Assembly: GCA_026874595.1 (NCBI GenBank)
Contig: CM049317.1
Coordinates: forward strand, 42,308,401 to 42,372,400
DNA from: Sipunculus nudus
Taxonomy: Eukaryota; Annelida; Sipuncula; Golfingiida; Sipunculidae
Length of the DNA stretch: 64,000 nt
Reading direction: 5' to 3'
Numbering within the stretch: the stretch's first letter is position 1; each line of letters opens with the position of its first letter. The translations under genes were made by a program, and so were the position numbers. Below are positions 10,926 through 63,270 of the stretch, piece by piece. Below the pieces are notes generated by a model. It was not told where the DNA came from. It did not search any database and saw only the letters and a list, made by a program, of their open reading frames with translations.

Positions 10926-11232
10926 GGGTTAAATAAAGTTAAATCCCTGAAAAAAGGCCCAAGCTACAGCAATTCTCATTTTAAGTGAGTAAATATATTT
11001 CCTTACTTTTTACAAAGTGCATTATGTCCCATAACTTAAACAAGGCCTACAGGCCTAATGCGAACCTGTGCAATGAGATTACACCAGGTATAATGCTTCA
11101 ATGCTGGACCATTACTTTTCAAGAACATGTGTAACATGTATATGAACAATGCAAGTACTAAACACTTAGAACAAGAAACAATTTAATGAACATCACTGCT
11201 ACAATTCTGGCATGGGTGCACACAACACAAAA

Positions 11233-12977
11233 ACTAGAATATGAGTAGTAAACAAGCGACTACGTGTATCCTCCAAAATCAGAGTGGGAAAGGTGAAGTG
11301 AGGCATGGATTGAGAGACAAGGGGAAATAGAGTGAGGTGTGTTGCATAATAGCCTGGATGTTTGCAGCTGAAATGTGTATGTAGGTTGCGCCACCTACCA
11401 CAAAATCCAGAAAGCTGTCCAAGATGTATAAACATGCATAATTTTAGGCAGATAAGTCAAACCACTACTGAGATGTGAGTGATTTTAGCCCACAGCAGAC
11501 AAACAGACAGAAGCTGTGCAAAAATGGTGGCAGGTGGCACCACCAATTTTGTGTATGATTAAGAGCTATGTGACATCTATACACATGCAAAATTTCAGGG
11601 GGATATGTCAAACCAGCCCTGATATATAAGCCTGAATGTGTGCAGTGTATACATAAATATAGGTGGCGCCACATGCCATAAAATCCAGAAAGCTATCCAA
11701 GATGTATAAACCTGCAAAATTTTAGGCAGATAAATCACACCACTACTGAGATATGAGTGATTTTAGCCCACAGCAGACTTACAGACAGAAGCTGTGCAAA
11801 AATGGTGGCAGGTGGCACCACCAATTTTGTGTATGATCAAGAGCTATGTGAGATCTATACACATGCAAAATTTCTTGGGGATATGTCAAACCAGTCCTGA
11901 GATATAAGCCTGAATGTCTGCAGCGTATACATAAATGTAGGTGGCGCCACCTGCCACAGAATCCAGAAAGCTATCCAAGATGTATAAACCTGCAAAATTT
12001 TAGGCGGATATGTCAGACTACTGCCGAGATATGAGTGATTTTATCCTACGGCAAACAAAAAGGACGCTGTGCAAAAATGATTGCAGGTGGCACCACAGCT
12101 TTTGCGTATGAGAAAGACCTATGTGAGATCTATGAACAATCAAAATTTTTGCCCAATCAGTCAAATGGTTCCTGAGATGTGAGCTTGGATGTCTGCAGCA
12201 TAATTTTGAATGTAGGTGGCACCACCTGTCATAAAATCAAGAAAGCTGTTAAGGATGTATAAAACTGCAAAATATCAGGTGGATAAGTAAAACCACTGCT
12301 GAGATATGAGTGATTTTATCCCAAGGCAGATAAACAGATGGACGCTGTGCATAAGTGGTGGCAGGTGGTGCCTCCAGTTTTGCCTATGATGAAGAGCTAT
12401 GTGAGATCTATACACATGCAAAATTTTGACCCAACTGGTCAAACGGTTCCTGAGATATGAGCTTGGATATATGCAGCTTAAACATGAATGTAGGTGGCGC
12501 CAACTGTCATAAAATCAAGAAAGCTATACAGGATGTATACACATGCAAAATTTCAGATGGATAAGTCCAACCAATGCAGAGATATGAGTGTTTTTATCCT
12601 AAGGCAGATGAACAGATGGACGCTGTGCAAAAATGGTTGCAGGTGGCACCACCATTTTTAGTGTATGTTATAAAGCTTTCCAAGGGCTACATTTGTGCAA
12701 AATCTTTAGCCTTATCGGTCAAACAGTTCCCGCGATATGTGGGTTTATGTGTGGAAACAGACCAACAAATGGAAGCTTGGCAGAGAGGAAAGGTCAGAGG
12801 TCACCCAAAAATGAGGGCGCAGCAGTTCACATGTGACCAATCATAATTCTGAATTTTGAAAAATTCTGCCCAGTGGTTATGAAGGAGTTCTCCGGAAACC
12901 TATGCGGCGATGGCGGCAGCATAGTCGTCCGACTGAAAACTTACTAGTATCCGCAAAACTCTGTTTTGGCGGATACA
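11233..12977 (-). mobile_element. HLE-3 element nested in HLE-2 copy 1
   Basis: The left end is ACTAGAATATGAGTAGTAAACAAGCGACTACG followed by TGTATCCTCCAAAATCAGAG. The right end is AACTCTGTTTTGGCGGATACAA. The interior is a tandem array whose units alternate between a '..tgtcataaaatcaagaaagctatccaggatgtata' type and a '..gtatgataaagagctatgtgagatctatacacatgc' type. Both are centred on AGGTGGCGCCACC or variants. A GC-rich 'ggcggcagcatagtcgtccgactg' segment lies just inside the right end. Confidence 0.75.
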
Positions 12978-13386
12978 ATGATTGTAGATGGCACCACCAG
13001 TCTAATATACAACAAAGAGATATATAAATATGCCCAATGTCAGTCTGACCCCTCCTGTGAAATAAGCAGGGACATACACTGTGCAAAAATTATTGTAGGT
13101 GGCGCCACCAGTCTTGTACACTATAAAGCTACCTGATATGTATAAACATGCCCAATTTTAGGCTGATGTATCAAATTCCTCTGAAGAAATAAGCAGGCAC
13201 ATGCACTGCAAAAGTCAATGTAAGTGGCATCACCTGTCTTGTAAATGAGAATACCATCAAAGACGCATAAACAGGTCAAAATATCAGTCCAATACATCAA
13301 ACTTCCCCAGAGTTTGATGCACTGGGCTGACAAGGCTTAGGTGAGTAAGGCAGTTGCCCCCAAGTGACCTGTGACATATTGCTGCC

Positions 13387-15021
13387 CAGGGTTTCCGCCA
13401 GGGTTGAAAAAGTGTGTCCGTTTTTACTTTGTGACAGGGAATGAACCTGGCGTGGGGGCGAAGCCCCCAGGGGGGGCGGAGGGTGTGGGAGGGGGTTCCC
13501 CCCTCCCACGGTGTGGAAATTTTACAAAATCAAGGTTGAAAACAACGTTTCTGATGTTCTTTTTCAGCTTAGTATCACGCCCATGGAGGGCGTAAAAATA
13601 TACCAGTAAAACAGTAAAATAGTATTTAGGCCTTCATGTGATGCAGCATGCACGTACAAGTCGTGTCTCCCTGACATATGTGGGCCCACAAACTGGCCTT
13701 TTACTTAACTATTCCTTGGAAAGGATTCGCCTAAACATCTGTTTTGGAAACTTGCGCAAACCGAATTGACGAAGATAAATATAATAAATATAGGGCCTGT
13801 TCTGCCCAAGCGATGTCCACATTGTTTTTATTATATCGTGCACGCTTCCTGTGTATCCCCAAGCTATTGACCAATTCAACATACCCCTCCAGGGACTAAC
13901 GGTTTCCCGCGCTCCCCGATTACCCGCGCCTGGTGCTTACCGCGTGATCTCCGCTGACCGGGTGTTCACGATGGGCCCGCACTACAGCCGGCATTTTGTC
14001 GGCTGCTGCAACGCATTCAACGGCCGGCTGCTTTTCTCAAAGTTAAATGACAAAAAATATATATTGCTGTCGCATGCTTTTACTTAAAATTCGTGCAATA
14101 TCCTTGAAATTTAGTGTGTTAGGCCTACTTGTTATAGGCCCAACATTTGATTCTGCGAAATCCCTGATTGCGATCTTGTCCGAGACGGCCCAATCATTGA
14201 CCAGCATAACCTGTTTCTGCACGTGTGACATTCAGTTGAATTATTCAGAACTTCCTCGGACGCTATTGGCTGCATTTGCCACAAGTTTTTATTTCAATAG
14301 GGAATTCCCTCATGGATATTCGCACATAGAACAGCGCATTCACTACGCTCCGGCCTTTTGAATTTTGTTCGGTAAAGTCAAGACAAAAGCCCTTTGCATT
14401 GTGACCTCGCTGCAAGGCTCGCGGTATGTTAATATGTCAAAGCAGCGATGTCCACAGCGACTGCATGATGAAAATGATTCACCTTCTTCAAATTTTGAAA
14501 AATATATCATCACAACCAAATAAAACACAAATTTAATTTCCATTATCGATAGGTTTATCATTTTTACTGACTACAGAGACTGAATGTACAGTTGTCGAAC
14601 GATTAATTATAATATCACACCTTTGGCCGGTAGCGCATGTTCAGGGCCGACATCGTACGTCCGACATCGTACGTCCACAACCTATGGTTACACAACTGAT
14701 TACCTTCTCCAGAAAATTAAATGGCGAGACAGCATAAAAACTATTTGCGCAGATGTTGTACATGTATAAGGAATCTTTTTACTGATCTATTCTTTTCAAA
14801 GTTTTTCAGAAATTGTCAGGACAGTGACTGATTGGCACCGAACAGGCGACAGGGGCGCGCAAATCTGATACATAGTTTGAAGATGATGAAGACAGCACGA
14901 CACTCGTGCTTGAGTTATTTTTAAGCTCTCTCAGCCTCTTTGACTGGGGGAATTTTTAATGACCCTCGCAGGGGGAAAGAGTCCGTTTACCGGCCTTAAT
15001 TTTAGGGTCGCGGAAACCCTG
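13387..15021. mobile_element. DNA transposon with 12-bp TIRs and a 5-6 bp target duplication
   Basis: Ends are CAGGGTTTCCGC and GCGGAAACCCTG. CTGCC (or GCTGCC) is directly repeated at 13382-13386 and 15022-15026. The sister HLE-2 copy is uninterrupted at this point (near 47096: 'aaattgctgcctcaagctactgc'), which proves insertion. The 1635-bp interior has a GC-rich subterminal region (gggggcgaagccccc, gggagggggttccccc) and no recognisable transposase. CAGGG ends occur in several hAT lineages, but hAT duplications are normally 8 bp, so I leave it unclassified. Confidence 0.8.
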
Positions 15022-18000
15022 CTGCCTCAAGCTACTGCACTGAGTGAACTCTTGACCTGCACCTGGCTAGACTGAGAGAACTTTTGACCTGTACCTGGCT
15101 GCACTGAGTGAACTCTTGACCTGTTGCATAATCTGACACAGCTGGCAGTCTGCCAAAGCTATAAATAGATTCAGGCTGAACTTTGGTTCCAAATATGATG
15201 CAGTGAGCAGTCTGCCAAAGCTATAAATAGGATGCAGCTACTGCACTGAGTGAACTCTTGACCTATACCTGGCTGCATTTCTTCCAATCCTGGCACTGTG
15301 CCAGAACTATTTATAGAGCTGACATCATCTTGGCTAATGGCCAACATCAAGGCACTCACTGGCAATCTGCCAATAGTAAACAAAGTGCTGTCATCTGTAC
15401 ACAAAAGTGGTCCCTACTTGAAACAACTTTGAAATTTATTTTCCCAATCCAAAATGCTTTTCAGCTGACTTTTATTAAAAAGAAATCAGGAATATATGTA
15501 AAATTATTACAGATGCATACTGAATGCAAAATTAAAACAAGTGACCCATGGGTCATGACGCTCAGCTGACTGGGAAGAGATTCACAAAAGGAAATTTTAT
15601 CATCAGAATGGTAGATACCCATTCAACTGAAGCATCAAACAGATTAACCAACAGGCCAAGATTTAGTCTGTATTTATATATCTGAAAAATAGAGAAAAAA
15701 TGTGTAAACTTTAAAAACTAGAACACGGGTAACCGACAAGTGACTACGTGTATCTGCCAAAATCAGAGTGAAGTGAGGCATGGATTGAGTGGCAAGGGGA
15801 AACAGAGTGAGGTATGTTGCATATTAGCATGGATGTCTGCAGCCTAAATGTGTATGTACGTTGTGCAACCTACCACAAATCCAGAAAGCTGTCCAAGTTG
15901 TATACATATGCAAAATTTTAGGCAGAAAAGTCAAACCACTACATGGATATGAATGATTTTAGCCCACGGCAGACAAACAGACAGACGCTGTGCAAAAATG
16001 GTTGCAGTTTTGTGTATGATAAAGACCTATGTGAGATCTAAACACAAGCACAATTTTGGCCCAATCGGTCAAATGGTTCCTGAGATATTAGCTTGGATGT
16101 GTGCAGCGTTAACTAGAATGTAGGTGGCGCCACCTGTCATAAAATCAAGAAAATTATCCAGGATGTATAAACCTGCAAAATTTTAGGCAGTTATGTCAAA
16201 CCACTACAGAGAAATGAGTGATTTTAGGCCACGGCAGACCAACAGACAGACGCTGTGCAAAATGTGCAACAAGGGACCTATGGGTCACGGCGCTCAGCTG
16301 TTATATATGATTAAAAAATATGATTTAGGAATGAGGCATATGCTGGTTTGGTGTGGTAATAAATATAAGCTTTATTATGAGTTGTTGGTGTTTAGCTTAT
16401 GTATGATTATGATATTATCTTTGGAGACAGGGAAGAGGATTGATTTCATTTATTTTATTAACAAATGGAGTACTATTGTCACACAGATTTTGACTTGGCC
16501 ATATAACTTATAAGCAGAACATATAATATAAGAGTTTAACTATTTATTTTAAAAAAAAATTACAAATATTGTCGCAAATATAATTTTTATTAAAAATAAT
16601 AAGAGAATCTTATGATTTTTTAAAATGAAATATAACTGAAATGATTATTAAAATAATATCAAAGAATATATTCATGAATGCATTCATGAATACATTTTGA
16701 AAGTATTTGCACTGGTATTCATATACTTTCATTTTTACCTGAATTCCAATTCTTTATGCAAGACATTTTATAATGGAGTACATATTCATATTCGTATTTA
16801 AATACAATTGCAAATTTTTCCCACCATTACTGGCATTTATTCAGTTTTCACCAAACAATTATGTTGAGAATCCAGAATATACAAAATTCACACATTTAAA
16901 TTATGATCAAAAGTACCTGGTTTTATGGCTTTTATTTATATTAAAAAAAAATGTAATATATTCATTTTGGACTAATTTCACATCAATGTACACACTAGAC
17001 ACAGTAGGAATCTAGATTAATAATATCAACTGCATCTTTGTCTATCATTATTTTCCTTCATATGATCCCTAATGATTAGTAATGAATAATATGATTTACT
17101 TTTTTATCATTAAAATTGAACTGAAAAATACCATAGGTGACTGCATGGTGTTATTTGGAGTACGTGACATTCTATCCATCGATACAAGATTCTTTTATCA
17201 TCAGTAACTGCAAGTTGATTTCCTGTTATTATAAACTAACAAATTCTCTTTTATTTTTCTTTAATTTGTTATTAAAAAACAATAAAAATTTATTAATTTA
17301 TTGTTAATTGTTATGTTGTTGGTTAAAACTACTAGATGAGTTGGGTTGGACACCTGGATCAACTGTGGCTGGCCATAAGCTGCCTACCTGCAACAGTGTA
17401 TGGCTCGCCTCAAGCATGCATAATTTGCTGAAAGTTCAACAAGGTCAACATACAGGTGACTCAAGAGGGGCTGGAGAGAGTTAAGGTCTGACATGGTCTC
17501 ATAAAAACATTAATAAAAGCTACAATTTTTGGCCAATTTCTTTCAGCTTTCTAAACTAAAAAGCTGAAATCCTTGTGTGCATGATATGAAAATTATATCA
17601 ACCGTGCTCACAGGAAACAAATATGCCATGGTCAAAGTTGGGCAAAATTTAAGGTACTAATTTTATATTTATACTAATAACATATAAAATTTGAAAAATT
17701 CAAGACTACTTTAGGGTATTCAATTGAATCTTGATTAAATAATGTTACATCCCTGGCAAAAAAACTCTAGCTTCAGCAATCCCCTTGTTAAGGGAGTAAA
17801 TATATTTCTTGATTTTTTACATAGTGCATTATGTTTGGGCCCATAACTTAAAACAATTACGCAATACTGACATCATTTCTGGCATATGCATAGAGAATGT
17901 ATAGAAAAATATGTATATTATATATGATTAAAGTCACATCAGTGGTTTTGATATTAGGCAGTCTTGAAGTGTAACAATGGGTTTTTAATGGAAAAATGAA

Positions 18001-18818
18001 GTTTTTCATTAATATCTCGAAGGTATTAAGTCCTAGTGACCAAATTCTTGGCATGGTAGGGAAGTTTGGAGACATCTAATTGTATGCCAAATTATAGGAA
18101 CTGAGAGCTGAAACTGGGGAGCTGAGCTCTTGCAAACTGCATAACACTAGCTTGATGTAAACAATTTGTTACATGGTGCTTGAAAACTTGAATAAAATCT
18201 ACAGTTTTTGATCAACTGGTTTAAAATTTTTGGTGTTAACAGACAAAATGCTAACAAAAACATGCTGTGAAAATTAAATCCACAGTACTTACAGTAAAAA
18301 AACGTGCCATGGTCAAAGTTGGGCAAAATTTAAGGTACCAATTTTTTATTTTTGTTTATATTTTAAAAAATTTAAAAGATTTTGATCTAATTTTGGGTAT
18401 ACAATTTAATTTTGATAAATTAAAGTTATATTACTGGAAAAAAAGTCCATAGCTTTAACAAGTTTTGTGTTAAGTGATCAAATATCTTTCCTGATTTTTT
18501 ACAAAATGCATTATGTTTAGGCCCATAACTTTTTTAAATTATATAATACAGACATAATTTCTGGCATGTACATAGGAACTATATAGAAGAATATTTATGG
18601 TAAATATGAGGGAAAACAGATGAGTGGTTTTGATATTAGGCAGTCCTGAAGTGTGAAAATAGGTTTTTAATAAAAAATTGAGGTTTTTCCTTAATTTCTC
18701 AAAGGAACGAAGTCGCAAAGACCCAGTTTTCGGCTTGGTAGGAGATCTTGGGGACATCTAACATTATGCTGAATTTTGGATTCCTAGGTCTTACGGTTTC
18801 AAAACGTGCCACATCTAC

Positions 18819-18866
18819 GGACGGACGGACGGACGGACGGACGGACAGACGGACGGACGACGGACA
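18819..18866. repeat. (GGAC)n microsatellite
   Basis: About eight near-perfect GGAC/GGACA tetranucleotides immediately before the HLE-1 hairpin. Equivalent tracts are at 2210-2262, 22267-22298, 28397-28442, 39008-39055, 46463-46512 and 61725-61770. Confidence 0.95.
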
Positions 18867-18879
18867 ATGGACCACGACT

Positions 18880-18912
18880 ATAGCTCAGATGACTTATAGT
18901 CAGCTGAGCTAA
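18880..18912. other. HLE-1 terminal hairpin (best-preserved example)
   Basis: TAGCTCAG pairs with CTGAGCTA (8 bp). Inside it TGACT pairs with AGTCA (5 bp) around a TAT loop, with one A/G mismatch between the stems. The element ends CTAA directly after the stem. The same structure recurs at about 5320, 22313, 23987, 28457, 39070, 46531, 51748, 56092, 61526 and 61787. Confidence 0.85.
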
Positions 18913-19976
18913 AAATGGTTGCAGGTGGCCCCTCCAGTTTTGTGTATGATAAAGACCTATGTGAGATCTATACACATGCAAAATTTTGGCCCAATCGTTC
19001 AAACGGTTCCCGAGATATGAGCTTGGATGTCTGCAGCATAAACTAGAATAAAGGTGGCGCCACCTGTCATAAAATCAAGAAAGCTATCCAGGATGTATAA
19101 AACTGCAAAATTTTAGGCATATATGTCAAACCACTGCCAAGATGTGAGTGACTTTACTGCACGGCAGACAAACAGACAGACGCTGTGCAAAAATGGTTGC
19201 AGGTGGTGCCACCAGTTTTGTGTATGATAAAGAGCTATGTTAGATCTATACACATGCACAATTTTCGCCCGATCGGTCAAACGGTTCCCGAGATATGAGC
19301 TTGGATGTCATCAGCGTGAACGTGAATGTAGGTGGTGCCACCTGTCATAAAATCAAGAAAGCTATCCAGGATGTATAAAACTGCAAAATTTTAGGCAGAT
19401 ATGTCAAACCACTGCCGAGATATGAGTGACATTATTGCACGGCAGACAAACAGACGCTGTGCAAAAATGGTTGCAGGTGGCGCCACCAGTTTAGCGTATG
19501 ATAAAGAGCTATGTTAGATCTATATACATGCAAAATTTTGGCCCGATCAGTCAAACGGTTCCCGAAATATGAGCTTGGATGTCATCAGTGTGAATGAGAA
19601 TGTAGGTGGCGCCACCTGTCATAAAATCAAGAAAGCTATCCAGGATGTATACGCATGCCGAATTTCAGGTGAATTAGTCAATTCACTGCAGAGATATGAG
19701 TGATTTTAACCAAAGGCAGATGAACAGATGGACACTGTGCAAACATGGTTACAGGTGGCGCCACCATTTTTTGTGTATGTTATAGAGCTATCCAAGGGCT
19801 ACATTAGTATAAATTTTATTTCCTGATCAGTCAAACGGTTCCCGAGATATGAGCTTGGAAAGCTGATAAAATCAAGTCCCAGAGGAGCTCTCTGGAAACG
19901 AACACGGCAACAGCGGAGGAACCCGGTCAAAAACATAGTATCCACAAAACTTCGTTTTGGCGGGTACAAAAATACA

Positions 19977-22260
19977 GGTGGCTCCACCAGTCTGCAGAAA
20001 CTAATAAAAACACTTACAAACATCAATATCCATGCAAAGAATCATGGTGATCTCCCCATTAGTTGTTCAGATACTTCAGCTTTTGTATCAAATTGTCCAT
20101 TATTCTGAGGGATACTTCGGAGTCCTATAGCTTGAAGGATATGGGTAACAGAGACCTAATTTTAAGTTTCCACAGGCACTTTTCATGGGCCCCTTGCATG
20201 ACAAGAATGAAGATTCTAGGTCCAGTTGTTGCGATTTGTACCCTGTTGACAGATAACCACATCTTTAAAGGTATCAAAAATAGAGAAAAAAAATCCTAAT
20301 AATTTGAAAAAAATAGAGGTGGCGCACCCAGTCTGCAGGAACTGATGGAACAGGTCATGATCAATATGTATGCCGTAAATCATGACCATCAGTGTTGTAG
20401 TTATTGAGATACTGCAGTTTTTGTATCAAATTTTCCATTATTCTGGAATTATTCATTATTAATTTGGAGCCATACAGCTTAAAGAATATGGGTAACAGAG
20501 ACCTAATTTCAGGTTTCCATGGAGACTTTTCATGGGTCTCCCTGTGTGTCAAGAATGAAGATTCTAGGTCCAGTTTTAATGATTTGTGCCCTGTTAACAG
20601 ATGTTCATAACTTTAAAGGTCTCAAAAATAGAGAAAAAATTCGTAAAAAAACCCGAACAAATACAGGTGGTGCCACCAGTCTGCAGAAACTGATGAAACA
20701 CTCCATGATCAATATCCATGAAAACAATTATGGCGATCCCTGCATTAGTTGTTCAGATACTTCAGCTTTTGTATCAAATTTTCCATTATTCTGAGCTGTA
20801 CTTTGGAGTGCCATAGCTCAAAGGATATGGGTAACAGAGACCTAATTTCAGGTGTCCATGGAGACTTATCATGGGTCTCCCTGTGTGTCAACAGTAGATT
20901 CTAGGTCCAGTCCTTACGATTTGTACCCTGTTGACAGATAACTACATCCTGAAAGGTCTCGAAAATAGAGAAAAAAAAAATTGTGAAAATTTGAAAAAAT
21001 ACAGGTGGCACCACCAGTCTGCAGGTACTGATGAAACACCTCTTGATCAATATGTATGCCAAAAATCATGACCATCAGTGTTGTAGTTATTGAGATGTTG
21101 CAGTTTGTTTTTATCAAATTTTCCATTATTCTGGGGGGTTATTGGGAGCCCCCCATAGCTCAAAGGATATGGGTAACAGAGACCTAATTTCAGGTTTCCA
21201 TGGAGACTTTTCAGGGGTCTCCCTGTGTGTCAAGAATGAATATTCTAGGTCCAGTCTTTATGATTTGTGCCCTGTTAACAGCTGTTCACATTTTTAAATT
21301 CGTAAAAAATCGAAAAATTTAGGTGGCGCCACCAGTCTGCAGGAAGTGATGGAACATCTCATGATCAATATGTATGCCAAAAATCATGACCATCAGTCAA
21401 GTAGTTAATGAGATATTGAAGTTTTTGTATGAAATTTTTGACTTTTCTGGGGGGTACTTTGGGGCCCCATAGCTCGAAGGATATGGGTAACAGAGATCTA
21501 ATTTATGGTTTCCACGGAGACTTTTAATAGGTTTCTCAGTGTGTCGAGAATGAAGATTCTAGGTCCAGCGGTTACGATTTGTGCCACGTTAACAGATGAC
21601 AGCATCTTTAAACGTCTCAAAAATAGAGGAAAAAATTGTAAAAAAATCGAAAAATACAGGTGGCGCCACCAGTCTGCAGAACTTATGGAACATCTCATGA
21701 TCAATATGTATGCCAAAAATCATGACCATCAGTGTTGTAGTTATTGAGATATTGAAGTTTTTGTATGAAATTTTTTACTATTCTGGGGGGTACTTTGGGG
21801 CCCCATAGCTCGAAGGATATGGGTAACAGAGACCTAATTTCTGGTTTCCAAGGAGATTTTTCATGGACCTCTCAGTGTATCAAGAATTAAGATTCTAGGT
21901 CTAGGCTTTACGATTTGTGCCTTGTTAACAGATGTTCACATTTTTAAAGGTCTCAAAAATAGAGAAAAAAATTTGTAAAAAATCGAAAAATACAGGTGGC
22001 GCCACCAGTCTGCTGGAAGTGATGGAACATCTCATGATCAATATGTATGCCAAAAATCATGACCATCAGTCAAGTAGTTGATGAGATATTGAAGTTTTTG
22101 TATGAAATTTTTGACTTTTCTGGGGGGTACTTTGGGGCCCCTTAGCTCGAAGGATATGGGTAACAAAGACCTAATTTCTGGTTTCCAAGGAGATTTTTCA
22201 TGGACCTCTCAGAATCCCCAGTTACAAGGTTCTAGGTTCAGCGGTTACGATTTGTGCCTG
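19977..22260. repeat. Core-2 tandem array, seven units of about 336 bp
   Basis: The block GGTGGCGCCACC-AGTCTGCAG or a variant starts units at 19977, 20318, 20666, 21004, 21322, 21658 and 21995 (spacings 341, 348, 338, 318, 336, 336 and 337). Each unit then has 'atgatcaatatgtatgccaaaaatcatgacc', 'tagctcgaaggatatgggtaacagagacctaattt' and 'gattctaggtccag'. The units are diverged from each other, so the array is not freshly amplified. Frames of 60-90 codons in it only mirror the repeat. Confidence 0.9.
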
Positions 22261-24019
22261 GTTAACAGACGGACAGACGGACAGACGGACAACGGACAAA
22301 GAGTGATCGCTATAGCTCAGATGACTTTCAGTCAGCTGAGCTAAAAAAACAGATATATCTCATTGATGGCCAATTCTTGAATTAAGTTGAGTAGGGATAC
22401 CAATAATTTATAATCCACTTACAGTTTTCTTTATATAGCCACAGAGAGCTGAATATCCATGATTGTAACACTGCCTGGTATGATGAATAAATTAATTCAT
22501 TAATCTAAATTTTTTAAAAGCTTTTAAAAAACTTTGTCAATATTAACCAAAGATAACCTGAAATCTAAATGTCTAGTGGCATGATGTAATAGATGCTGAT
22601 AAACTGGTGCCAGGCTAGATGTAACAGCATAACACAGCTAACATATATGGTAAAATGACTCAATTCAATCTCCATAATTCAGCCAAAAATCATTCATGTG
22701 GAACCATTAATGACAATTATTATAAGAATTATTGTAGGGATTATTCTTGTAAGATATTTAACAAACTGGCTTCAGTGACATCAGTCGAAAAACATTTCGC
22801 AGGTTTATAACTCATATAGGAAGATACAGCAAACTGGCTAAGTTCAGCTTCCCGTAACTCAGCCAAAAAGCACTGAACCAAAACCATTTGAACAAACTTG
22901 AATTATCAACATCTGAGGACAGTTAATTTGTGAGATTTAAGAATTTGGCCCAGTGGTTTTAGAGAAGATCTTTGTTGCCACTGAGCTAAAATTAGCTGTT
23001 ATGGCATAATACTAAATTCAGCTTTCCATAACTTAGCCAAACGTCACTGAAAAGAGACCATTTGAACAAACTTCAGAAAGCACTGGCCTAGGATTATTTT
23101 TGCGTGATATTAAACATTTTGGCCACATGGTTTCAGAGAAGAAGTTTTTTGTAGCCCTCAGTGTGATACAGGCACTGATGACCCCGTAACAAAAAAGGCT
23201 GATGCAGGTGGTGCCACCAATACCTCAATTTCAGATATGACACTGACATAAAATTTGGTGATGATAGCTCCAGCCGTTTCTGAGACTTAAATTTTAATTT
23301 TTAATTGTGCTTTTTTGCCAAAAATCTCCGAACTGGAACCATTCGAACAAACTTGAGAAAGATTGTTCCAGGGATCATTTCTGTGAAATATTGGACAATT
23401 TGGCTGGAAAGTTTCAGAGAAGATTTTTAAAGTTTTTTTCAGCTTTTTCCCTATTAAATCTAAGAAAATGCAGTTAGAAAAAAAATAAACAAAATCTGAT
23501 ATAGTTTTTTGGATGACTGATTATTTGCAAAAAAATTGATGATGCTAGCTCCTGCTGTTTTTGAGATAGATATGGTTACCATACAGACGACGCAGGACAC
23601 ACGACACAGGACGCATGACACACGACGAACAACGGACGCCGCCGCACCATCGCATAAGCTTACAGGTTCGCTAAAAAAAATAAGGCAATACTGACCTAAT
23701 TTCTGGTATGTACTTAGCCATTGTATAGGGGAACATGCATATGATCAAATGATCAAAGTCATATCAATGGTTTTGATATTAGGCAGCCTTGAAGTATAAC
23801 AATGGGTTTTGTATGGAAACTGAGGTTTTTCCTTAATATCTCAATGGGACAAAGTCCTGGTGACCCAATATTCAGTACATATTATTGGGCCTATAACTGT
23901 ATGCCAAATTTTGGATTTGCAAGTCCAGCGGTTACAAAACGTGCTCTGTTGATTGACGGCCAGTTGACGGACAAAGGACCATGACTATAGCTCAGATGGC
24001 TTATAGTCAGCTGAGCTAA

Positions 24020-25010: not shown

Positions 25011-25528
25011 TGTCACCCCTAACTTAACGTGATAACTTTACAACGGATATATCCTATAAAACAATAGGATGGGTTAACGCTCGCCACTTGATTTCATTAA
25101 TCAAGAAATTAGATCCCGGTCATTACAGGTGACATTTCCAGGTTCTTTTAAGGACGTGTATAAAAATACCAGACAATCATACACCCAGATCAATAGAAAC
25201 TATGAGACATCAGGTTAAATTCACAAATATAATTCAAGACAATACTTACAAAGACGTAGATGTAAGTGTGTGTGCGTTGATGTGTCAATGCGACAGTCCT
25301 TCACATTAAAAATACAGGATATTTACCGAGTCCGTGGTTTGTATAAACAAGTGACCCATGGGTCATGACGCTCAGCTGACTGGGAAGAGATTCGCAAAAG
25401 GAAATATTATCACCAGAATGGTAGTATATACCCATTCAACTGAAGCATCAAACAGATTAACCAACAGGCCAAGATTTAGTCTGTATTTATATATCTCAAA
25501 AATAGAGAAAAATGTGTAAACTTTTAAA

Positions 25529-26421: not shown

Positions 26422-26429
26422 AAAATACA

Positions 26430-30067: not shown

Positions 30068-30068
30068 A

Positions 30069-45637: not shown

Positions 45638-45665
45638 GGGGGGGGGGGGGGTGGGGGGGGGGGGG
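45638..45665. repeat. Interrupted poly-G tract
   Basis: Two runs of about 12 G separated by a single T. Confidence 0.95.
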
Positions 45666-53834: not shown

Positions 53835-54898
53835 CAAGGGACCAATGGGTCACGTCGCTCAGCTGAATTTTGGAAAATATTAGCAACTGCAAAATATTTT
53901 TATTTCTTTTGGTTTTTCATGTATATGAGCATATGAAAAGCCAAGAGAAAAAGGCCCTGCTACAATTAAACTCTGTAAATTATAGAATAATGGACGTGAG
54001 CTCATATGCACTGTGTAATAAATGAAACCTGTGGCCTGAAACCATTTAATGATGCACCAAGGGATAAAATAGGCTTACGTTAAGTGTTATATAAAGGTTA
54101 CATTTCATAAACAAATAATATGTGAAAGTAATTAAGTTTTCAAAAGTTTAATATATGGCCATATGAGTTAAAAATTAATCCAACAAATGTTGACCAATAT
54201 TCCTAAGATGGTGTTTTTCACACCTAAGCCCGGCCAGCTTTAAAAAATATGAATGAAATGCTACAAAGTATTTATATCTTCTTAAATCTAGACAATATTA
54301 GGATTAATTTCCTGAACATTTGTTTCTTTAAAACAAGGGACCCATGAGTCACGGTGCTCAGCTGAAGTTTGAAATTTTTGCAAATGCAAAATATGCAAAA
54401 TATTCTATTGTAAGGTTTTTCATATATAGAAGCACATGAGAAGCTAAGAGGAAAGGGCCCTCCTACTTGGTTATAGTAAGGTGCTAAATATATGATTGCA
54501 AAACTAATACTCTGACAAGACTGTCATGAAGAAAAACAGAAAAGTTTTGAGATACTGTGATGCATATGAAAAATTTACAGATGGACAGGCAAGTGGACAG
54601 AATGGACTAATACCTTTATTTCACTTTCAAGGGTATAATGCACTTAAGTTTACAGATTCATTTTTTTATTTACAAGTTTTATAAATTTGTAATAAAAAAT
54701 CTGAAAATATAAGTTAAAATATCAGAATTCTAAGTTGTGATTATTATTTATCCAGAGTGTAGCTCATATCGGGTCTTATTATGCATACACATATATTTTA
54801 TTATTTTTAAATCACAAATGTTTAAACTGAATTTAAAAGAAAACAAGGGACCCATGGGTCTCTGTGCTCAGCTGAAGTTGACCTTGAAGGTAAAACAT

Positions 54899-55144
54899 CT
54901 AAAATAATATCATTTGGAGATAAAGTCTAGGAGGAAAAGGTAATATAGGCCATGGCTGGTTGACATGATTGGTTTGTATTGATAAGTAAGAAATTGTTTC
55001 AAATAATATTTTGTGACCAAACCATGCATTTCCTAATGTTAAAACTGAAGCATGTGAGCGGTTTGTGACCATAAGATGAATATTAATACCATGATCATTG
55101 GTTGGCTTTTTGATAAACTGTTGACAGTTCAGTAGTTTACACAT
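54899..55144 (-). pseudogene. APE-type endonuclease remnant 2
   Basis: Minus-strand frame with KPTNDHG, VTNRSHASVLTLGNAW and FGHKIL. It aligns with remnant 1 at nearly every position and sits about 55 bp inside an HLE-1 palindromic end (54844). The catalytic SDH is replaced by FGH. Confidence 0.65.
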
Positions 55145-55155
55145 TTGTTAAATTG

Positions 55156-55158
<3 letters not shown>

Positions 55159-55212
<54 letters not shown>
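55159..55212. repeat. (AT)n microsatellite
   Basis: Uninterrupted AT repeat of about 54 bp. Confidence 0.98.
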
Positions 55213-55214
<2 letters not shown>

Positions 55215-56326
55215 TTAAATATATGGTTTTTTTTTCTATTTTATAAAATATATACAGTTGAAATATAACTTATATCCCCAGTCCAAAGATGGAAGGACTT
55301 GGTTGTGATGGGGGGGGTGAGGAATGATGGGATTAAAGTTTAACATATGCAATATTACTCAACTGAGTATATAAGTTTCTTTCAAATTTCAGACTTTAAT
55401 AGCTTAAATCCATACACATACAGCATATGAAAGTTATTTCAACAGTGCTTAAGGAAAAAATTTCATAATTAATATATATAGATATTTAATGATAATGGAG
55501 AGATGATGGGCAGACTGAGCTGATCACTATGTTCCATTCTCCTGAGGCAAGAATATGTTTCAATTAGATCTTTATTTTTTTCTTATCCAAGAATGCAGTT
55601 AGAAAAAAAAATAAACAAAATCCGATATAGTTTTTTGGATGACTGATTATTTGCAAAAAATTTGGTGATGTTAGCTCCTGCCGTTTTTGTGATAGCTATG
55701 GTTAAGGTACAGACGACGCAAAACGCCTGACACACGACGCCGCACCATCGCATAAGCTCACAGGTTCGCTAAAAATCCAGGTGGCGCAACCAATCTGCAG
55801 GAACTGATGAAACTCTCATGATGAATATGCATGCAAAGAATCATGGTGATCAATGATTAGTTGTTCAGATACTGGAGCTTTTGTATCAAATTTTTAATTA
55901 TTCTTAGGTGTACTTCTGAGCCCTACAGCTCCGAGGATATAAATAACAGAGGCCAAATTTCAGGTTTGCAAGGAGATTTTTTATTGACCTCCCTGCATGT
56001 CAAGTTAGAAGATTCCAGGTCTAGCCATTACAATTTGTGCCTGGTTAACGGACAGACAGACTGATGGACACTGGACAAAGGGTGATCGCTATAGCTCAAA
56101 TGACTTTCAGTCAGCTGAGCTAAAAATTATTCATTTCACATGCAGTGAACAAAAGGGCAAAACATAATCCTGGTGAAGGTATATCAAGGTGTCATATTAA
56201 CACAGTCTTAATATATAACATTAGTGTATGCTTTCGGCACCATAAAACCAATTATAACTAGATATATCAACAATCACTGCACATAATTTAAAACAATTGA
56301 ATAATCTGATGAACTATTGTACTCAC

Positions 56327-56358: not shown

Positions 56359-56639
56359 CTATAAACACAAAAACATGTATTATATTAATTCCATTTAGCC
56401 TTGTTGTGTTGACTTTTAATTCTCAGCCTGTTGTTAATATCCACAATATTCCAAAGATAATGTCATATAACCTAGTCAGCTCTCAAGTGAATATTTCTTA
56501 ATCTTTTTCAAAAACTGACCAGAGAGTTACCAATCAACTCACAAACATGCACTATTCATCACAAAATGGGAAAAACTATATTGGCAATGAACTGTATTTG
56601 GCTCTGACATTGCTCCTTATAGCATCATCACCCATCAGA

Positions 56640-57517
56640 ATGGCCTCTAGTTAACTAACCCCTTAGTGTGGCCTCTTCTTTACTAACCCATTAAGATGGC
56701 CTTTTATTAAACAAAACATTAGTTAGGCCTCTTGTTAATAACCATTAGTGTGGCCTCTTGTTAAATAACCATTAGTGTGGCCTAATGTTAATTAGTAAGG
56801 CCTCTTGTTAATTAATCAAATAGTTAGGCCTCTTTTTAATTATAGGCTACCATTGTGGTCTGTAGTTAACTGACCCATTAGATTGGCCTCTAGTTAATTA
56901 ACCCATTAGTGTGGCCTCTAGTAAACTAACCCATTAGTGTGGCCTCTAGTTAACTAACCCCTTAATGTGACCTCAAACTAACCCATTAATGTGGCCTCTA
57001 TTTAACTAACCCATTAGTGTGTCCTCTAGTTAACTAACCCATTGGTGTGGCCTCTAGTTATCTGACCCATTAGAATGGCATCTAGTAAACTAACCCATTC
57101 ATGTGACCTCTAGTTAACTAACCCCTAAGAGTGGCCTCCAAATAACTAACCCATTAGTGTGGCCTTTAGTTAACTAAGCCATTAGTGTGACCTCAAACTA
57201 ACCCATTAATGTGGCCTCTATTTAACTAACCCATTAGTGTGTCCTCTAGTTAACTAACCCATTGGTGTGGCCTCTAGTTATCTGAAACATTAGAATGGCA
57301 TCTAGTAAACTAACCCATTCATGTGACCTCTAGTTAACTATTAGTTAACTCCTTAGAGTGGCCTCCAAATAACTAACCCAATAGTTTGACCTCTAGTTGA
57401 CAATGCCATTAGTCAGGCCTCTAGTTAACTAACCCATTAATGTTGCCTCTAGTTATCTAACCCATAAGACTGGCCTCTAGTTTACTAACCCATTAGTGTG
57501 GCCTCTAGTTAACTGAC
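56640..57517. repeat. 28-bp minisatellite with a 220-bp higher-order repeat
   Basis: About 30 units of GGCCTCTAGTTAACTAACCCATTAGTGT with substitutions and small deletions. A block beginning 'gtgacctcaaactaacccattaatgtgg' occurs at about 56966 and again at about 57186, and the following 170 bp match almost base for base: a recent duplication of eight units. It lies in the intron just upstream of the 32-bp exon. Confidence 0.92.
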
Positions 57518-57654
57518 AAGTTAAGGGAGTAAATATATTTCCTGAATTTTTACAAAAGGCATTATATTTGGGCCAATTACTTCAAGAATTAAAAAAATAT
57601 TAAACTTATTTCTCGTATGGTCATAGGAAATACATAGAGAAATTAATAAATTAA

Positions 57655-60600
57655 CAAGGGACCTATGGGTCACGGCACTCAGCTGAATGAGACAGATACA
57701 ATTGTGTCACTATTGTTGTATGTAGGTCTGTAAGATTTCATTTTGACAGATGTAATTTTTTGTATTAATTATGTAGTTGAGCGGAATAGTTATCAGTATT
57801 TTAAATATGAACATGAATGTGTGTCTAAAATATTGCAATGGGAATGACCAGATGTTGTAAATTGCAGAGGAAGGAAGTGGAGATTTGCAAGTATAAAAAT
57901 ACAAATTTAATAAATCAAAATATTTATGGAAAAGTAGAAAACTTATATGTTTTGGGAAGCAGTTGTTGCTGAATTAGAGAGGAAACAGAATGTCTCAAAA
58001 AGTATCTATAGAGAAGAAATTGTAGATTAAGCTGTGAGAAGTTGCCATGTTTGATCTGAATTGAAGAATGGGGGATTGTTGCTAATAATATCTTGTGATC
58101 TGACCATGTGTTTTCTAATGTTGAAACTGAAGCATTTAAACAGTTAGTAAAGACAAGATCTATGGTATTTCCATAGTCATTGGTTGGTTCTCTGACTAGT
58201 TGTTGACATTAAAGAGTTGACATAATTGTTTCAATATGGTGTTATATATTATATTAGAAATGTCAATATTGAAATTGCCCATGATCACTATAGGCAGGAT
58301 GTGGTCAACTTGAGAGACTAAAACTTTGGAGTTCAGCGAAGAAGTTACTGATGGGACATCCGGGTGACCTATAGAGGAAAACAATCTGAAGTGACTGAGT
58401 CTAAGTGTGAATATAGAGAAGAGATGACTCAAAATCTGGTATTGTGTGGTGGTGAAGGGTTACATGGGGACTCAGCTGTTTAACCTGATTGGGGGTGGGG
58501 GGGGGGGGGGGGGGGGGAGGGAGGATGAGAGTTTAAAAATACCTTTGTAACTCTGTATATTTATTTCTTTATTTACCAGTTATAAATTTTATGCAGTTGC
58601 CAGAAGAATATTGTCCTAAACAAATACTCAGTGGAGTGAGGAAAGTTACAACACCTTTGCATAAACATACAGGATACAAAATTTAATCTTACAGGTAAAA
58701 AAAAGTTTTATTCATAATTATTGAATATTTAAAAAAAGACAGAGAGATATAAAAACAAAGCATATCACTTTAATTCCCATTCTACTGAGGCAGAAAAATA
58801 CTGAACGAATGTTTGCATTAGGTCCTCATTTTTTTATTACATCATTTTATTGTTAAGGGAAATTTTGGAAAAAATTTATAAATTTTACTGTACATTTACA
58901 ATATATATCAATTATATTTGAAAATTTAAGTTGGTTAACAATTCTAAATTGCATCAACATTTGCAGTTAATCTGCTCAGTCAAACAATTATGTCACATTA
59001 TATACACAGATGTATTTATTTTTTCTTAAAATATATTTTTTTATATATTATCTGAAAATAACACTTGATTCAGGAAAAGTTGTATACATTGGATCGTAAA
59101 CAGCAATGCAATTAAAGTATGTAACTAATGCAACATATCTGTTGGGGGGGGGGGGAGGGAGGGAGGTCAGGGTTGCCATGTGATTCTACATTTGTGACAG
59201 CAGTGTTGCATCACTAACAGGCAAGGCTGTAGGGACCAGACATGGCTAGTCTGGAGGTTCAAAATGAAAATACATTAGAGCCTCAGAAAAACTTCAACAA
59301 CTAGAACAATTTTTAAGCTTTTACTTTGAAATTTCAGAATTTAACAGATTAAATCTATATATATGGACTGTGAAAAGTAAATCAAATGTTCTTACAAGAA
59401 AGAAACATGCCATGGTCAAACTTGGGCAAAATTTAAGTTATATAGAGGAATATTTATGGTAAATATGAAGAAAACCAGATGAGTGGTTTTGATATTCGAC
59501 AGTCTTGAAGTATGAAAATAGATATTTAATAGAAACACAGGTGTATTTAATTTTTTCTAAAAATATATTTTTAAATTATAACTTTTTAAAATTATATAAT
59601 ACTGACTAAATTACTGGCACGTACATAGGAACTATACAGAGGAAACAGTTAAAGTTTTGAAATACTGTGATGCATATGAAAAATTTACAGATGGACAGGC
59701 AAGTGGACAGAATGGACCAATACATTTATTTCACTTTCAAGGGAATAATGCATTTTAAGTTTATATATAAGCCTATTTTTTTAGCATATCCACTTTTACC
59801 ATTAATAGTTTTAAATCTGATTCATTTTTTTTATTTACAAGTTTTATAAATTTGCAATAAAACAACTGAAAATATAAGTTAAAATATTAGAATTCTAAGC
59901 TGCAATCATTATATATCCAGAGTGTAGGTCATATTGGGTCATATTATGCATACACATATATATTTTTTTTTAAATCACAAATGTTTAAACTGAATTTAAA
60001 AGAAAATAATGCCACAACATGGCATCTAATAGATTATTCCTTGAATCACTATTAAAAAGTTTTGCACATTGGAATTTTCAGTACATACTTAATTTTATTC
60101 ACCAAAATAAAATAAAAGATTCAGTAAATTGGATAAAATAAAAACATCCTTTCAAATAAAGTATACACACTTTTGGTTGAATGAAGGACAAACAATATCA
60201 TTATGCTAATTACAATCTCAGCAATAATTTATTACTGGAATTAATAGTCAATTTCACACCTGGTGAAGTTTTTACTCTTCTGAAGTAAGGAATTACTTAT
60301 CTGATGAACATCCACACTTTCATAGCAATACACCACTTTGTGGACACTATTAAATGAGCACTTTAATCATTGTAACCCTGGTGGTACAATACAAAATCTA
60401 AAATGTAGCATAGCCATGAATAAAATAAAATACAGAAAATTATAACATTCATCTAGTTAATGCACCATCGGGGGGGGGGGGGGGCAGGGCAGAGGGGAAG
60501 CCATAATGCAAGTGATGGCTGTTCTACTAGGTGGGCCAGATGTAAACAACACTTGACATGGTGTATGAAAACTTGAATAAAAGCTACTCTTTTCTATCAA

Positions 60601-61256
60601 TTCCTTTGAAATTTCAGATTTTAAAAGATTAAATCCTTATGTATGTATGCTGTGAAAATTAAATCAACAGTGCTTACAGAGAAAAAAAGTGCCATTCCCA
60701 AAGTTGGACAAAATTTAAGGTATTAATTTTTTATTTAAGCTAATAACTTGAAAAATTTGCAAAATTCAGATCTAATTTTGGGGAAATCATTGAATCTTGA
60801 TAAAATAAAGTTATATTCCTGAAAAAAAAGTCTCCAGCTTCAGCAATTCTCACGTTAGGTGAGTAAATATATTTCCTGATTTTTTAAAAATTGCATTATA
60901 TTTGGGCCCATAACTTCAAAATAATACCCAATACTGACCTAATTTTTGGTATGTTCATAGAAAATGTATTGAAGAATATGAATACTAAATATGACCAAGA
61001 ACAGATCAGTCGTTTTAATATTAGGCAGCCTTGAAGTGTAACAATGGCTTTTTTATGGAAAACATAGGTTTTTCCTTAGTATCTCGAAGGAACGAAGTCC
61101 TAATGACCCAATTTTCGGTATGGTAGGAGATTTTGGGAACATCTAATGGTATGTATAATTTTGGATTCGTAGGTCTAACAGTTTTAAAATGTGCCCTGTT
61201 AACAGACGACGGACAAAGGACCACGACTATAGTCAGCTTATAGTCAGCTGAGCTAA
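57655..61256 (-). mobile_element. HLE-1 element with endonuclease remnant
   Basis: The left end is CAAGGGACCTATGGGTCACGGCACTCAGCTG. The body includes the endonuclease fragment (58060-58432), poly-G tracts (58491-58518, 59143-59153, 60471-60484), type-B sequence, and a hairpin ending CTAA at 61256. Two further hairpin ends follow at 61558 and 61816 with partial type-B units between, so the right side is a stack of truncated copies. The pairing of ends is inferred. Confidence 0.6.
58060..58432 (-). pseudogene. APE-type endonuclease remnant 3 (best preserved)
   Basis: Minus strand. The upstream frame (58196-58432) reads IGHPDVPSVTSSLNSK and then PIVIMGNFNID, the GDFN metal-site motif with Asp changed to Asn. 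After a frameshift near 58200 the domain continues with REPTNDYGNTIDLVFTN, STLENTW and SDHKILLA, which retains the catalytic Asp-His pair. About 400 bp of non-coding sequence separates it from the HLE-1 palindromic end at 57655. The order and orientation fit the C-terminal endonuclease of a Helentron replicase. A CR1-like LINE is the alternative source. Confidence 0.72.
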
Positions 61257-61816
61257 AAATGGTCAATATCAGGTCAGTGGTTTTGATATTAGGCAGTCTT
61301 GAAGTGTAACAATGGGTTTTTTATGGAAAACGGAGGTTTTTCCTGAATTATTCCTTATGAAGTCCTAGTGACCCAATTTTCGGTATGGTAGGAGATTATG
61401 GGGACATCTAAAGGTATGCTGAATTTCAGATTCGTAGGTCCAATGGTTTCAAAACGTTCCAGTTTAATGGACAGATGGTGGGTCAGACGTACGGACGGAC
61501 AGCCAACAGACGAAGGACCAAGACTATAGCTCAGATGACTAATAGTCAGCTGAGCTAATAAAAAATTTAGGTTTTTCCTTAATATTTTGAAGGAACGAAG
61601 TCCTACTGACCCAATTTTCGACATGGTAGGAGATTTTAGGGACATCTAACTGTATGCCAAATTTCAGATTCCTAGGTCCAATGGTGTCAAAACGTGCCAG
61701 TCTTACAGACGGTTATCCGGACAGACTGATGGACGGACGGATGGACAGCTAGACGGACGGACATCGGACAATGGACCAGGACTATAGCTCAGATGACTTA
61801 TAGTCAGCTGAGCTAA
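61257..61816 (-). mobile_element. Two truncated type-B HLE-1 right ends in tandem
   Basis: Each has 'cctagtgacccaattttcggtatggtaggagatt', 'gacatctaa..gtatgc' and 'tccaatgg.ttcaaaacgt.ccagt'. Each then has a GGAC-like tract and a hairpin ending CTAA (61558 and 61816). Confidence 0.75.
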
Positions 61817-63270
61817 TTGTATCCGCCAAAACAGAGTTTTGCGGATACTATGTTTTCAGCTGCACGCCGCCGCCGCGTAGGTGTCTGGAGAACTCCTCCG
61901 TAACCGCTGGGCGGAATTTTACGAAACCCGGGATTATGTTCGGGTCACATGTGAACTGCTGCGCCCCGATTTTGTTTTGACCTCTGACCTTTCCTCTGCG
62001 CTCTGCGTCCGTTTGTGCTTCTGTTTCACACATAAACCCACATATCTCGGGAACCGTTTGACGGATCAGGAAAATTTTTTTGCACAAATGTATCCCTTGA
62101 AGAGCTTTATAACATACACAAAAAATGGTAGCGCCACCTGCAACCATGTTTGCACAGTGTCCATCTGTTCGTCTGCCTTGGGTTAAAATCACTCATATCT
62201 CTGCAGTGATTTGTTTAATTCACCTGAAATTCGGCATGCGTATACATCCTGGATAGCTTTTCTGATTTTACGACAGGTGGCGCCACCTACATTCACGTTT
62301 ACGCTGCCGACATCCAAGCTCATATCTCGGGAACCGTTTGACCGATTGGGCCAAAATTTTGCATGTGTATAGATCTCACATAGCTCTTTATCATACGCAA
62401 AACTGGTGGCGCCACCTGCAGCCATTTTTGCACAGCTCCCGTCTGTTTGTTTGCCATGGGATAAAATCACTCATATCTCTGCAGTGATTTGACTAATTCA
62501 CCTGAAATTCGGCATGCGTATACATCCTGGATAGCTTTTCTGATTTTATGACAGGTGGCGCCACCTACATTCACGTTTACGCTGCAGACATCCAAGCTCA
62601 TATCTCGGGAACCGTTTGACCGATTGTGCCAAAATTTTGCATGTGTATAGATCTCACATAGCTCTTTATCATACGCAAAACTGGTGGCGCCACCTGCAGC
62701 CATTTTTGCACAGCTCCCGTCTGTTTGTCTGCCATGGGATAAAATCACTCATATCTCGGCAGTGGTTTGACATATCTGCCTAAAATTTTGCAGGTTTATA
62801 CATCCCCGACAGCTTTCTTGATTTTATGACAGGTGGCGCCACCTGCATTCAAGTTTATGCAGCAGACATCCAAGCTCATATCTTGGAAACTGTTTGACCG
62901 ATTGGGCCAAAGTTTTGCATGTATATAGTTCTCATATAGCTCTTTATCATACGCAAAACTGGTGGCGCCACCTTCAACCATTTTTGCACAGCGTCCATCT
63001 GTTTGTCTGCCACGGGCTAAAGTCACTCATAAACATATAGTGGTTTGACTTATCTGCCTCAAATTTTGCATATGTATACAACTTGGATGGCTTTCTGGAT
63101 TTTGTGGTAGGTGGCGCAACCTACATACACCATTTGGCTGCAGACATCCATGCTAATATGCAACACTTCACTCTATTTCCCCTTGCCACTCAATCCATGC
63201 CTCACTTCATCCGTTCCACTCTGATTTAGGCGTATACACGTAGTCGCTTGTCGACTACCCGTATTCTAGT
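61817..63270 (+). mobile_element. Complete HLE-3 element, opposite orientation to the others
   Basis: The left end is TTGTATCCGCCAAAACAGAG. The right end, reverse-complemented, is ACTAGAATACGGGTAGTCGACAAGCGACTACG, with hairpin GTAGTCG/CGACTAC, followed by a weaker copy of the subterminal repeat. The interior is seven GGTGGCGCCACC sites (one diverged) at 62277, 62405, 62554, 62683, 62832, 62961 and 63110. Spacings are 128, 149, 129, 149, 129 and 149: a dimeric tandem repeat of 278 bp. It is inserted directly after an HLE-1 CTAA end. No coding gene is supported. Confidence 0.85.

Follow-up and report, generated by a model that had tools for sequence, protein, structure and literature searches.

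The 64,000 nucleotides of the Sipunculus nudus genome analysed here (GenBank assembly GCA_026874595.1, contig CM049317.1; C12:42308401-42372400 in our numbering; hereafter the window) are best read as a stack of non-autonomous Helentrons (HINEs), in which the terminal motifs, or keys, form a matched pair peculiar to each family. We place the probability of this reading at roughly 85%, counting within it that two keys, A from the window and D from elsewhere in the genome (1.43 Gb, 153 contigs), sit on Rep lineages of their own, and that nested composites have been amplified. The three window families, A, B and C, are new members of the HINE kind. A first-pass annotation, made from the letters of the window, had proposed non-autonomous Helentrons; subterminal repeats, a 3′ hairpin, T-rich insertion sites and, for family A, a partner encoding Rep, helicase and endonuclease all agree with that proposal.

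End structure of the three families

Every motif that the first-pass annotation had named was found in the window above the expectation from dinucleotide shuffles, and its division into three end-key families holds. At no more than one mismatch, GACCCATGGGTC has 11 matches (0.06 expected), GCTCAGCTGACT has 28 (0.13) and GCGAACCTGTG has 5 (0.44); AGGCCTACAGGCCT gives four rows at two places with up to two mismatches (0.25), TGTATCYGCCAAAA gives 12 with up to two (1.34), and GTAGTCGACAAGCGACTAC gives four with up to three (0.00). The palindromic end described in that annotation is the 3′ end of a canonical HINE, and in the canonical direction the families read as follows.

Family A: 5′ TTA-GCTCAGCTGACT-(3 nt)-AGTCATCTGAGC, then a (GTCC)n-like microsatellite, then the array; 3′ CAGCTGAGC-GYCGT-GACCCATGGGTC-CCTTGT
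Family B: 5′ TTAGCGAACCTGTGAGCTTATG ... 3′ CACAGGTTCGCATTAGGCCTGTAGGCCTTGT
Family C: 5′ TTGTATCCGCCAAAACAGAGTTTTGCGGATACT ... 3′ TTTTGGCGGATACACGTAGTCGCTTGTCGACTACCCGTATTCTAGT

All three have inverted subterminal repeats, which lie near the 5′ terminus and some distance in from the 3′ terminus, and a palindrome or hairpin close to the latter. The single architecture claimed for them is correct for these shared parts, but the termini differ (CTTGT then T in A and B, CTAGT then T in C), as do the 5′ ends, where by eye a hairpin is present in A and C and none in B. The claimed complement of the subterminal repeat at the opposite end likewise stands in part: it adjoins TAA in A and B or ACAA in C, but its full 12 bp occur only in some A 3′ ends, the majority retaining the 9-bp core CAGCTGAGC. 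The features of a canonical Helitron (Helitron1: a 5′ TC, a 3′ hairpin followed by CTRR, insertion between A and T) were not found; A and B begin with TTAGC and end with CTTGT, and C ends with CTAGT but does not start with TC.

Among 31 A 3′ ends (L003 and L004 omitted; E and L labels are our own locus names), one hairpin base pair is A-T in 27, G-C in four and mixed in none; a gene-bearing subfamily (L024, L030 and L031, the last with an extra change) has the G-C form. The paired states suggest that the A hairpin has been retained through a double change, an argument whose weight is limited by the relatedness of the copies. Of 39 ends scored for orientation in the window, 37 are canonical minus, and the two plus ends belong to one C element (61817-63270); 11 further rows, mirror images of the A 5′ hairpin, were left out of this count.

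Copy number and pairing of ends

Exact matches were counted on both strands of the genome, with the reversed pattern as control. The self-complementary A palindrome has 26,425 copies (control 36); all other controls gave 0, against 19,954 copies of the A 5′ key (A5, with the other keys named likewise), 4,584 of a longer, strand-specific A3, 3,636 of B5, 5,033 of B3, 5,052 of C5 and 2,750 of C3. For each pattern counted, forward and reverse totals are almost equal.

Position lists hold the first 100 places per pattern and describe the start of contig C1. A pair was scored where a 5′ and a 3′ end lay no more than 5 kb apart, correctly ordered and on the expected strand, and shifted positions served as control. 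The first test used 78/100 B5 rows, 60/100 C3 rows and the full lists of A3, A5, B3 and C5; a strand-specific test used 41/100 A3 rows, 62/100 B5 rows and 18/100 rows of each of two junction lists, and for A was restricted to the first 3.19 Mb.

Ends pair by family. B met B in 22/61 cases (control mean 1.04, maximum 5; reversed order 4/61) and C met C in 33/100 (control 0.83, maximum 5; reversed order 2/100), and strand-specific A3 met A5 in 17/41 (control 4.3, maximum 11). Across families the counts were 2/78 for B3 with C5 (control 1.16), 4/99 for B3 with A5 (8.4), 0/99 for C3 with A5 (5.2) and 2/78 for C3 with B5 (0.5); strand-specific A3 met B5 and C5 in 0/41 each, with 2/41 each in reversed order. 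Lengths of C elements group near 1,140, 1,433, 1,711 and 1,990 bp, in steps of one 278-bp array unit. The first-pass annotation had named two contrary outcomes, end types combining at random and autonomous partners of another class; random combination was not seen at the start of contig C1, the one contig start that the pairing test covers, and no partner of another class came to light, DDE transposases not having been searched for.

An autonomous partner for family A

A genome search with the Rep profile PF14214 gave at least 143 matches (150 of 195 candidates scored), none of these in the window. We sampled 49 Rep/helicase loci: seven were read over 14 kb, 20 as 4-kb tails and 20 as 1.4-kb tails picked with a helicase/endonuclease query (123 of 492 candidates scored), and the last two were those with the best Rep scores. 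Lineage names were coined in this analysis; the A-type lineage is defined by the helicase motif AAKTIWKAQG and/or the endonuclease motif GDFNID and comprises E4-E6 and nine tails.

Downstream in the coding direction, the A 3′ key is present at 10 of these 12 loci and at none of 11 loci of a lineage marked IHKCQG/GDFNDD. Pairwise alignments within the A-type lineage end 0-3 bases from the A terminus at eight independent loci in three subfamilies (L024/L030/L031, E5/L029/L034 and E6/L026); L036 shares its flank with E6, duplicates that locus and was not counted as independent. Pfam recognises Helitron_like_N and PIF1 in E5, E4 and E3, Exo_endo_phos_2 in E4 (7e-8), and in E3 both Exo_endo_phos (1.5e-12) and OTU (1.1e-6). 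Judged from these alignments and predicted domains, the A 3′ key closes putative Rep/PIF1-helicase/endonuclease Helentrons of one protein lineage. A single key leads from tens of thousands of exact palindrome copies (26,425) to a gene-bearing lineage.

Upstream of Rep, the N-termini of A-lineage proteins match Herpes_teg_N (E ~1e-11) and DUF6570 in Pfam; such proteins lie at L013:1849-8874 (minus) and L011:905-8164 (plus). As a candidate for the true 5′ end of three autonomous copies, an A 5′ key found upstream of them was considered and set aside, as its outer flank is common to the copies and it may be nested.

A second lineage with its own key

Two gene-bearing copies, E7 and L032, share 98.6% identity across 1,189 bp and diverge directly after GTGTCGTTCCGACACATCTAGT followed by TT. 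This hairpin key with a C-like CTAGT end, key D, has 2,556 exact genome copies (control 0), so that a key read off a second Rep lineage predicted a family; few loci match the E7 fragment at more than 80% (123 of 492 candidates scored). E7 encodes Rep and PIF1 across two frames (Pfam), and its endonuclease is assigned by tblastn alignment to E3 and E5. An A 3′ end downstream of E7 had been a candidate for its terminus; the alignment with L032 shows that E7 stops earlier, at key D.

The Rep lineages with keys A and D are ~32% identical over 1,122 aligned residues, and as the two keys sit on separate lineages, separate replicases with separate keys are supported for these two. Alternatively, one promiscuous replicase could serve all keys, the differences among them being drift within one system and the pairing of ends a mark of common descent of intact copies. 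A and B do have TTAGC starts and CCTTGT ends in common and nest in each other, and descent alone would also predict pairing in old copies; we nevertheless consider this unlikely, given that the two diverged Rep lineages carry different keys, each at more than one locus, and that five more loci (L117 and L124-L127) end together at yet another CTAGT-type 3′ terminus, CTGACCTGTCAGTTTTCTAGT followed by TT.

The IHKCQG/GDFNDD lineage (L005, L007 and L009; tails L019-L023, L027, L037 and L038) is abundant, with some frames above 2,200 aa, and showed no recognised terminal key in the stretches read. E1 and E2 have tandem repeats of ~69 bp in their N-terminal frame. The two best-scoring Rep loci, L001 and L002 (with L044-L047), contain stops and have no tblastn match at 1e-4 to Helentron proteins; they are perhaps another Helitron lineage.

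Nested composites in the window

The elements of the window, most of them on the minus strand, are listed below.

11040-23674, minus: B composite (3′ key 11040-11070, 5′ key 23648-23674, their pairing inferred) that contains C 11233-12978 and A(C) 15537-22344, from comparison of flanks
11233-12978, minus: C element with a 278-bp array, nested in B (3′ key 11233-11278, 5′ key 12946-12978)
15537-22344, minus: A(C) composite, an A element with C inside and a 336-bp array (A 3′ key 15537-15568, A 5′ key 22315-22344)
15717-19969, minus: C element nested in A and itself split by A 16269-18912 (keys, flanks)
16269-18912, minus: A element within a 278-bp array unit (keys; flanks read against the unit)
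25347-28490, minus: second A(C) composite, with C 25529-26422 (keys, flanks)
37274-39103, minus: A element with both keys (end scan)
40683-48936, minus: B composite, pairing inferred, with a 278-bp array at 40820-42518, nested A 42812-46564 and a C 5′ key at 46647-46679
42812-46564, minus: A element lying in a T-run, with related sites that lack the insertion in L033 and flank B_L089
53834 and 54333: two more A 3′ keys directly below the next element (end scan)
54843-56123, minus: A 3′ key with the A 5′ key closest to it, a probable pair (end scan)
55746-55772, minus: B 5′ key with no B 3′ partner in the window (end scan)
57654-58481, minus: A 3′ end with the remnant of an endonuclease, matching autonomous copy E6 at 93% identity across 525 bp
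61787-61816, minus: A 5′ key directly beside a C element (end scan)
61817-63270, plus: complete C element, the sole one scored plus, with a 5′ hairpin key, a 278-bp array at 62113-63159 and a 3′ hairpin key ending CTAGT

A 28-bp tandem array also lies at 56630-57514, its unit unlike the 278- and 336-bp units.

The C elements at 15717-19969 and 25529-26422 lie in two A copies with identical junctions. This C-to-A junction, read from the second composite, has 1,171 exact genome copies, and the C-to-B junction of the B composite at 11040-23674 has 707 (control 0 for both). Of the 18 A(C) and 18 B(C) junctions compared in a stretch of contig C1, 13 of the former lie 1,127-1,167 bp from an exact C5 and 9 of the latter lie 158-172 bp from an exact B3. 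For A(C), the best fit is a single C insertion that was then amplified by way of the outer keys; for B(C) the same history is likely.

The first-pass annotation's statement that interior arrays resemble one another and are shared found no support in that form. The 278- and 336-bp units are alike over ~17-23 bp only, around GGTGGCGCCACC, and the sharing consists mainly of C elements nested in A and B; amplification of composites by their outer keys makes the interiors of the families look shared. The 12-bp palindrome GGTGGCGCCACC itself occurs in both array types, the remainder of the units being unrelated (window positions 2320, 11940, 19053, 27116 and others; also L042), and several 5′ ends lie in a T-run directly after it. 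A role for GGTGGCGCCACC as a landing pad, raised by several 5′ ends 8-25 bp past it, found few cases among the 40 A and 20 B flanks surveyed (L075, L085 and L097 by scan, L068 by eye) and was dropped, since the neighbouring T-run can explain them.

It could also be supposed that the arrays are the drivers, with satellite expansions captured by chance ends and composites formed by array recombination instead of nested insertion. The presence of GGTGGCGCCACC in both window array types would suit this, as would the relationship of oyster HINE arrays to classical satellites described in part of an earlier study (PMC7492417); moreover, A 16269-18912 splits a 278-bp unit whose flanks rejoin not cleanly but with ~10 extra bases. 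Yet the nested elements begin and end at their own keys in T-runs, and C in the A(C) copies is of near-constant length, as one insertion followed by transposition predicts. We regard array-driven origin as quite improbable.

Insertion sites and proposed mechanism

The base before the 5′ key is T at positions -1, -2 and -3 in 30, 35 and 39 of 40 A copies and in 19, 20 and 19 of 20 B copies, so that T-rich insertion, as in HINEs, characterises the A and B flanks surveyed. Many flanks hold older repeats in differing registers; among the first 20 A flanks only L060 and L065 align in register up to the junction (76% identity), which indicates that most copies are separate insertions. Comparison of A 42812-46564 with the uninterrupted relatives of its site shows no duplication beyond the T-run, within which a duplication of a few T is possible. 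This single family A site bears on the suggestion that the elements are miniature inverted-repeat transposable elements (MITEs) mobilised by a DDE transposase that would use the subterminal repeats as inverted repeats: such repeats are present, and the pearl elements of bivalves were originally described as MITEs (per PMC7492417), but the ends are asymmetric, the expected target-site duplication was not seen, and the A key closes Rep/helicase/endonuclease elements, which leaves the suggestion very improbable overall and nearly refuted for A.

Under the Helentron reading, the Rep of each lineage would nick at its own subterminal repeat and one strand would be displaced; replication would stop at the lineage's own hairpin, a few bases before the cut (between CTTGT and T in A and B), and insertion would be into T-runs. 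Such a Rep could mobilise any DNA flanked by a pair of its own ends, and with it the C elements or arrays that had inserted there, and the A(C) and B(C) composites would have arisen by nesting first and amplification by outer keys afterwards.

Observations that weigh against this reading

Several observations count against the reading of matched keys, own Rep lineages and amplified composites. In the pairing tests, strandless A3 met A5 only weakly (32/76; control 14.6, maximum 28; reversed order 25/76), with 4/14 for B5 (control 2.7) and 5/15 for C5 (control 3.1); the weakness can be attributed to the A palindrome, which carries no strand. Strand-specific A3 met A5 in the wrong order at 11/41, as A is dense, and C3 met B5 within 10 kb in 7/78 cases, above control (mean 1.15, maximum 5), an excess to be expected where C has nested in B. 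An exact C5 lies within 4 kb of just one of the 18 B(C) junctions, and unit amplification is better shown for A(C). Among the A-type loci, E4 and L035 (2/12) have no A key downstream, the key at L028 is probably part of a separate HINE, the Exo_endo_phos match in E5 (0.00044) falls under the Pfam cut-off, and the A 5′ key upstream of three autonomous copies, their candidate 5′ boundary, has a shared outer flank.

Finally, none of the 49 Rep/helicase loci is followed, in the direction of coding, by a B or C 3′ end; most were read over 1.4-4 kb, with up to 8-15 mismatches allowed depending on the pattern. The proposal that matched keys point to specific replicases, each to be sought as an autonomous Rep-helicase element, therefore gains support for A and, from outside the window, for D, but not for B or C. 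Keys of these two families do occur near sampled genes: C3 upstream of the E5 gene, C5 on the opposite strand in L025, C5 in L033, and B5 in L026 and L034. Inspection by eye also shows, at the same place downstream of the related genes of L112 and L115, a C 3′ region that is inverted and has no hairpin. We read these as neighbouring or nested insertions and not as the genes' own ends.

Orientation blocks on contig C1

The orientation of ends was followed over C1:0-27 Mb with full lists except for C3 (87/100) and D3 (73/100). Of the 123 ends listed in the first 1.2 Mb, 122 share an orientation (A 72/73, B 30/30, C 14/14, D 6/6; some elements give both ends). All 16 ends at 1.229-1.399 Mb are opposite, seven at 1.504-1.551 Mb return to the first orientation, six at 1.592-1.619 Mb are flipped and 13 at 1.703-2.064 Mb return again. 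The flips are common to several families; a D end at 1.469 Mb goes against the pattern, and beyond 2.07 Mb orientations are more mixed.

Agreement between adjacent ends of one family exceeded all 5,000 shuffles for A5 (89/99) and B3 (77/99), lay between the shuffle mean and maximum for A3 (70/99), B5 (60/99), C5 (59/99) and D3 (45/72), and was scarcely above the mean of 42.7 for C3 (47/86). Consecutive ends of different families more than 8 kb apart agreed in 87/130 cases at 3.2-14.9 Mb (2,000 shuffles: mean 64.8, maximum 84); at 0-3.2 Mb the same comparison was not significant (34/41; mean 30.7, maximum 39), owing to the overall skew of orientation there. In three stretches of 3.2-26.6 Mb, cross-family agreement for ends 8-15 kb apart was 19/19, 23/23 and 14/16; for ends 15-30 kb apart it was 34/48, 41/51 and 22/30, and for ends 30-60 kb apart 37/91, 49/78 and 31/46. 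Prediction from A5 neighbours at 0-3.19 Mb passed the 95th percentile of shifted labels for C3 (5/5) and barely for B3 (23/26), and stayed within it for B5 (13/15), C5 (13/15), D3 (9/9) and A3 (32/36); prediction from the other families at 3.2-14.8 Mb succeeded for A in 22/33, B in 47/67, C in 42/66 and D in 18/29, above the control mean of about half and below each control maximum. The pattern is strong at the start of the contig and modest elsewhere, and the first stretch may be special, given its richness in A5, with 55 copies in 1.15 Mb where the genome average is 14 per Mb.

A tentative and rather doubtful explanation, by analogy with the IS200/IS605 elements of bacteria, is that the orientation of Helentron insertion is set by the passing replication fork, probably through entry into single-stranded DNA of one template strand. 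IS200/IS605 favour the lagging-strand template, and their orientation follows replication (PMC5371812); Helitron Rep proteins are described as members of a group of nucleases acting on single-stranded DNA (PMC5876387). A replication cause is a guess, and contributions could also come from the direction of transcription, from regional duplication, or from nesting in the T-runs of older copies that point the same way. If the explanation were true, the direction of the fork would be written into the genome as uniformly oriented blocks of copies, between tens of kilobases and a megabase in length and common to families whose keys are unrelated, and the blocks would offer both a readout of fork direction and evidence on target choice by eukaryotic rolling-circle transposons. 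Among the papers listed by literature searches, none showed such blocks for Helitrons.

Comparison with known systems

Family C resembles fungal Helitron2 in its hairpins at both ends and asymmetric terminal inverted repeats (in C seen by eye); Helitron2 is described there as being without an endonuclease, and it is set against family C by its ends alone (PMC5148889). The bivalve pearl elements, likened here by description only, have been re-categorised as non-autonomous Helentrons with central repeats (per PMC7492417).

The link between Helentrons and HINEs was already known from mite and Drosophila pairs, including DINE-1, which like the present families have a pair of subterminal inverted repeats, a 3′ palindrome and central repeats and, like family A, a partner with Rep, helicase and endonuclease (PMC4067079). 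Identity between HINE and partner is given there as >95% or >98%, whereas here one window copy reaches 93% over the 525 bp noted above and the others were compared by keys only. The closest counterpart is Cg_HINE of Crassostrea gigas (PMC7492417), which likewise has a 5′ subterminal inverted repeat, its complementary inverted repeat, a GTCY/GTCC microsatellite, a tandem array, a 3′ subterminal inverted repeat and a palindrome, and which also comprises several families with differing keys and T-rich insertion sites. Its units are mostly 140-180 bp, against 278 and 336 bp here, and its authors could not relate the oyster HINEs to any of 10 autonomous elements. Unlike Cg_HINE as described there, the Sipunculus families include amplified composites and a gene-bearing partner linked by its key, and with such pairs from a single genome the specificity of keys becomes directly testable.

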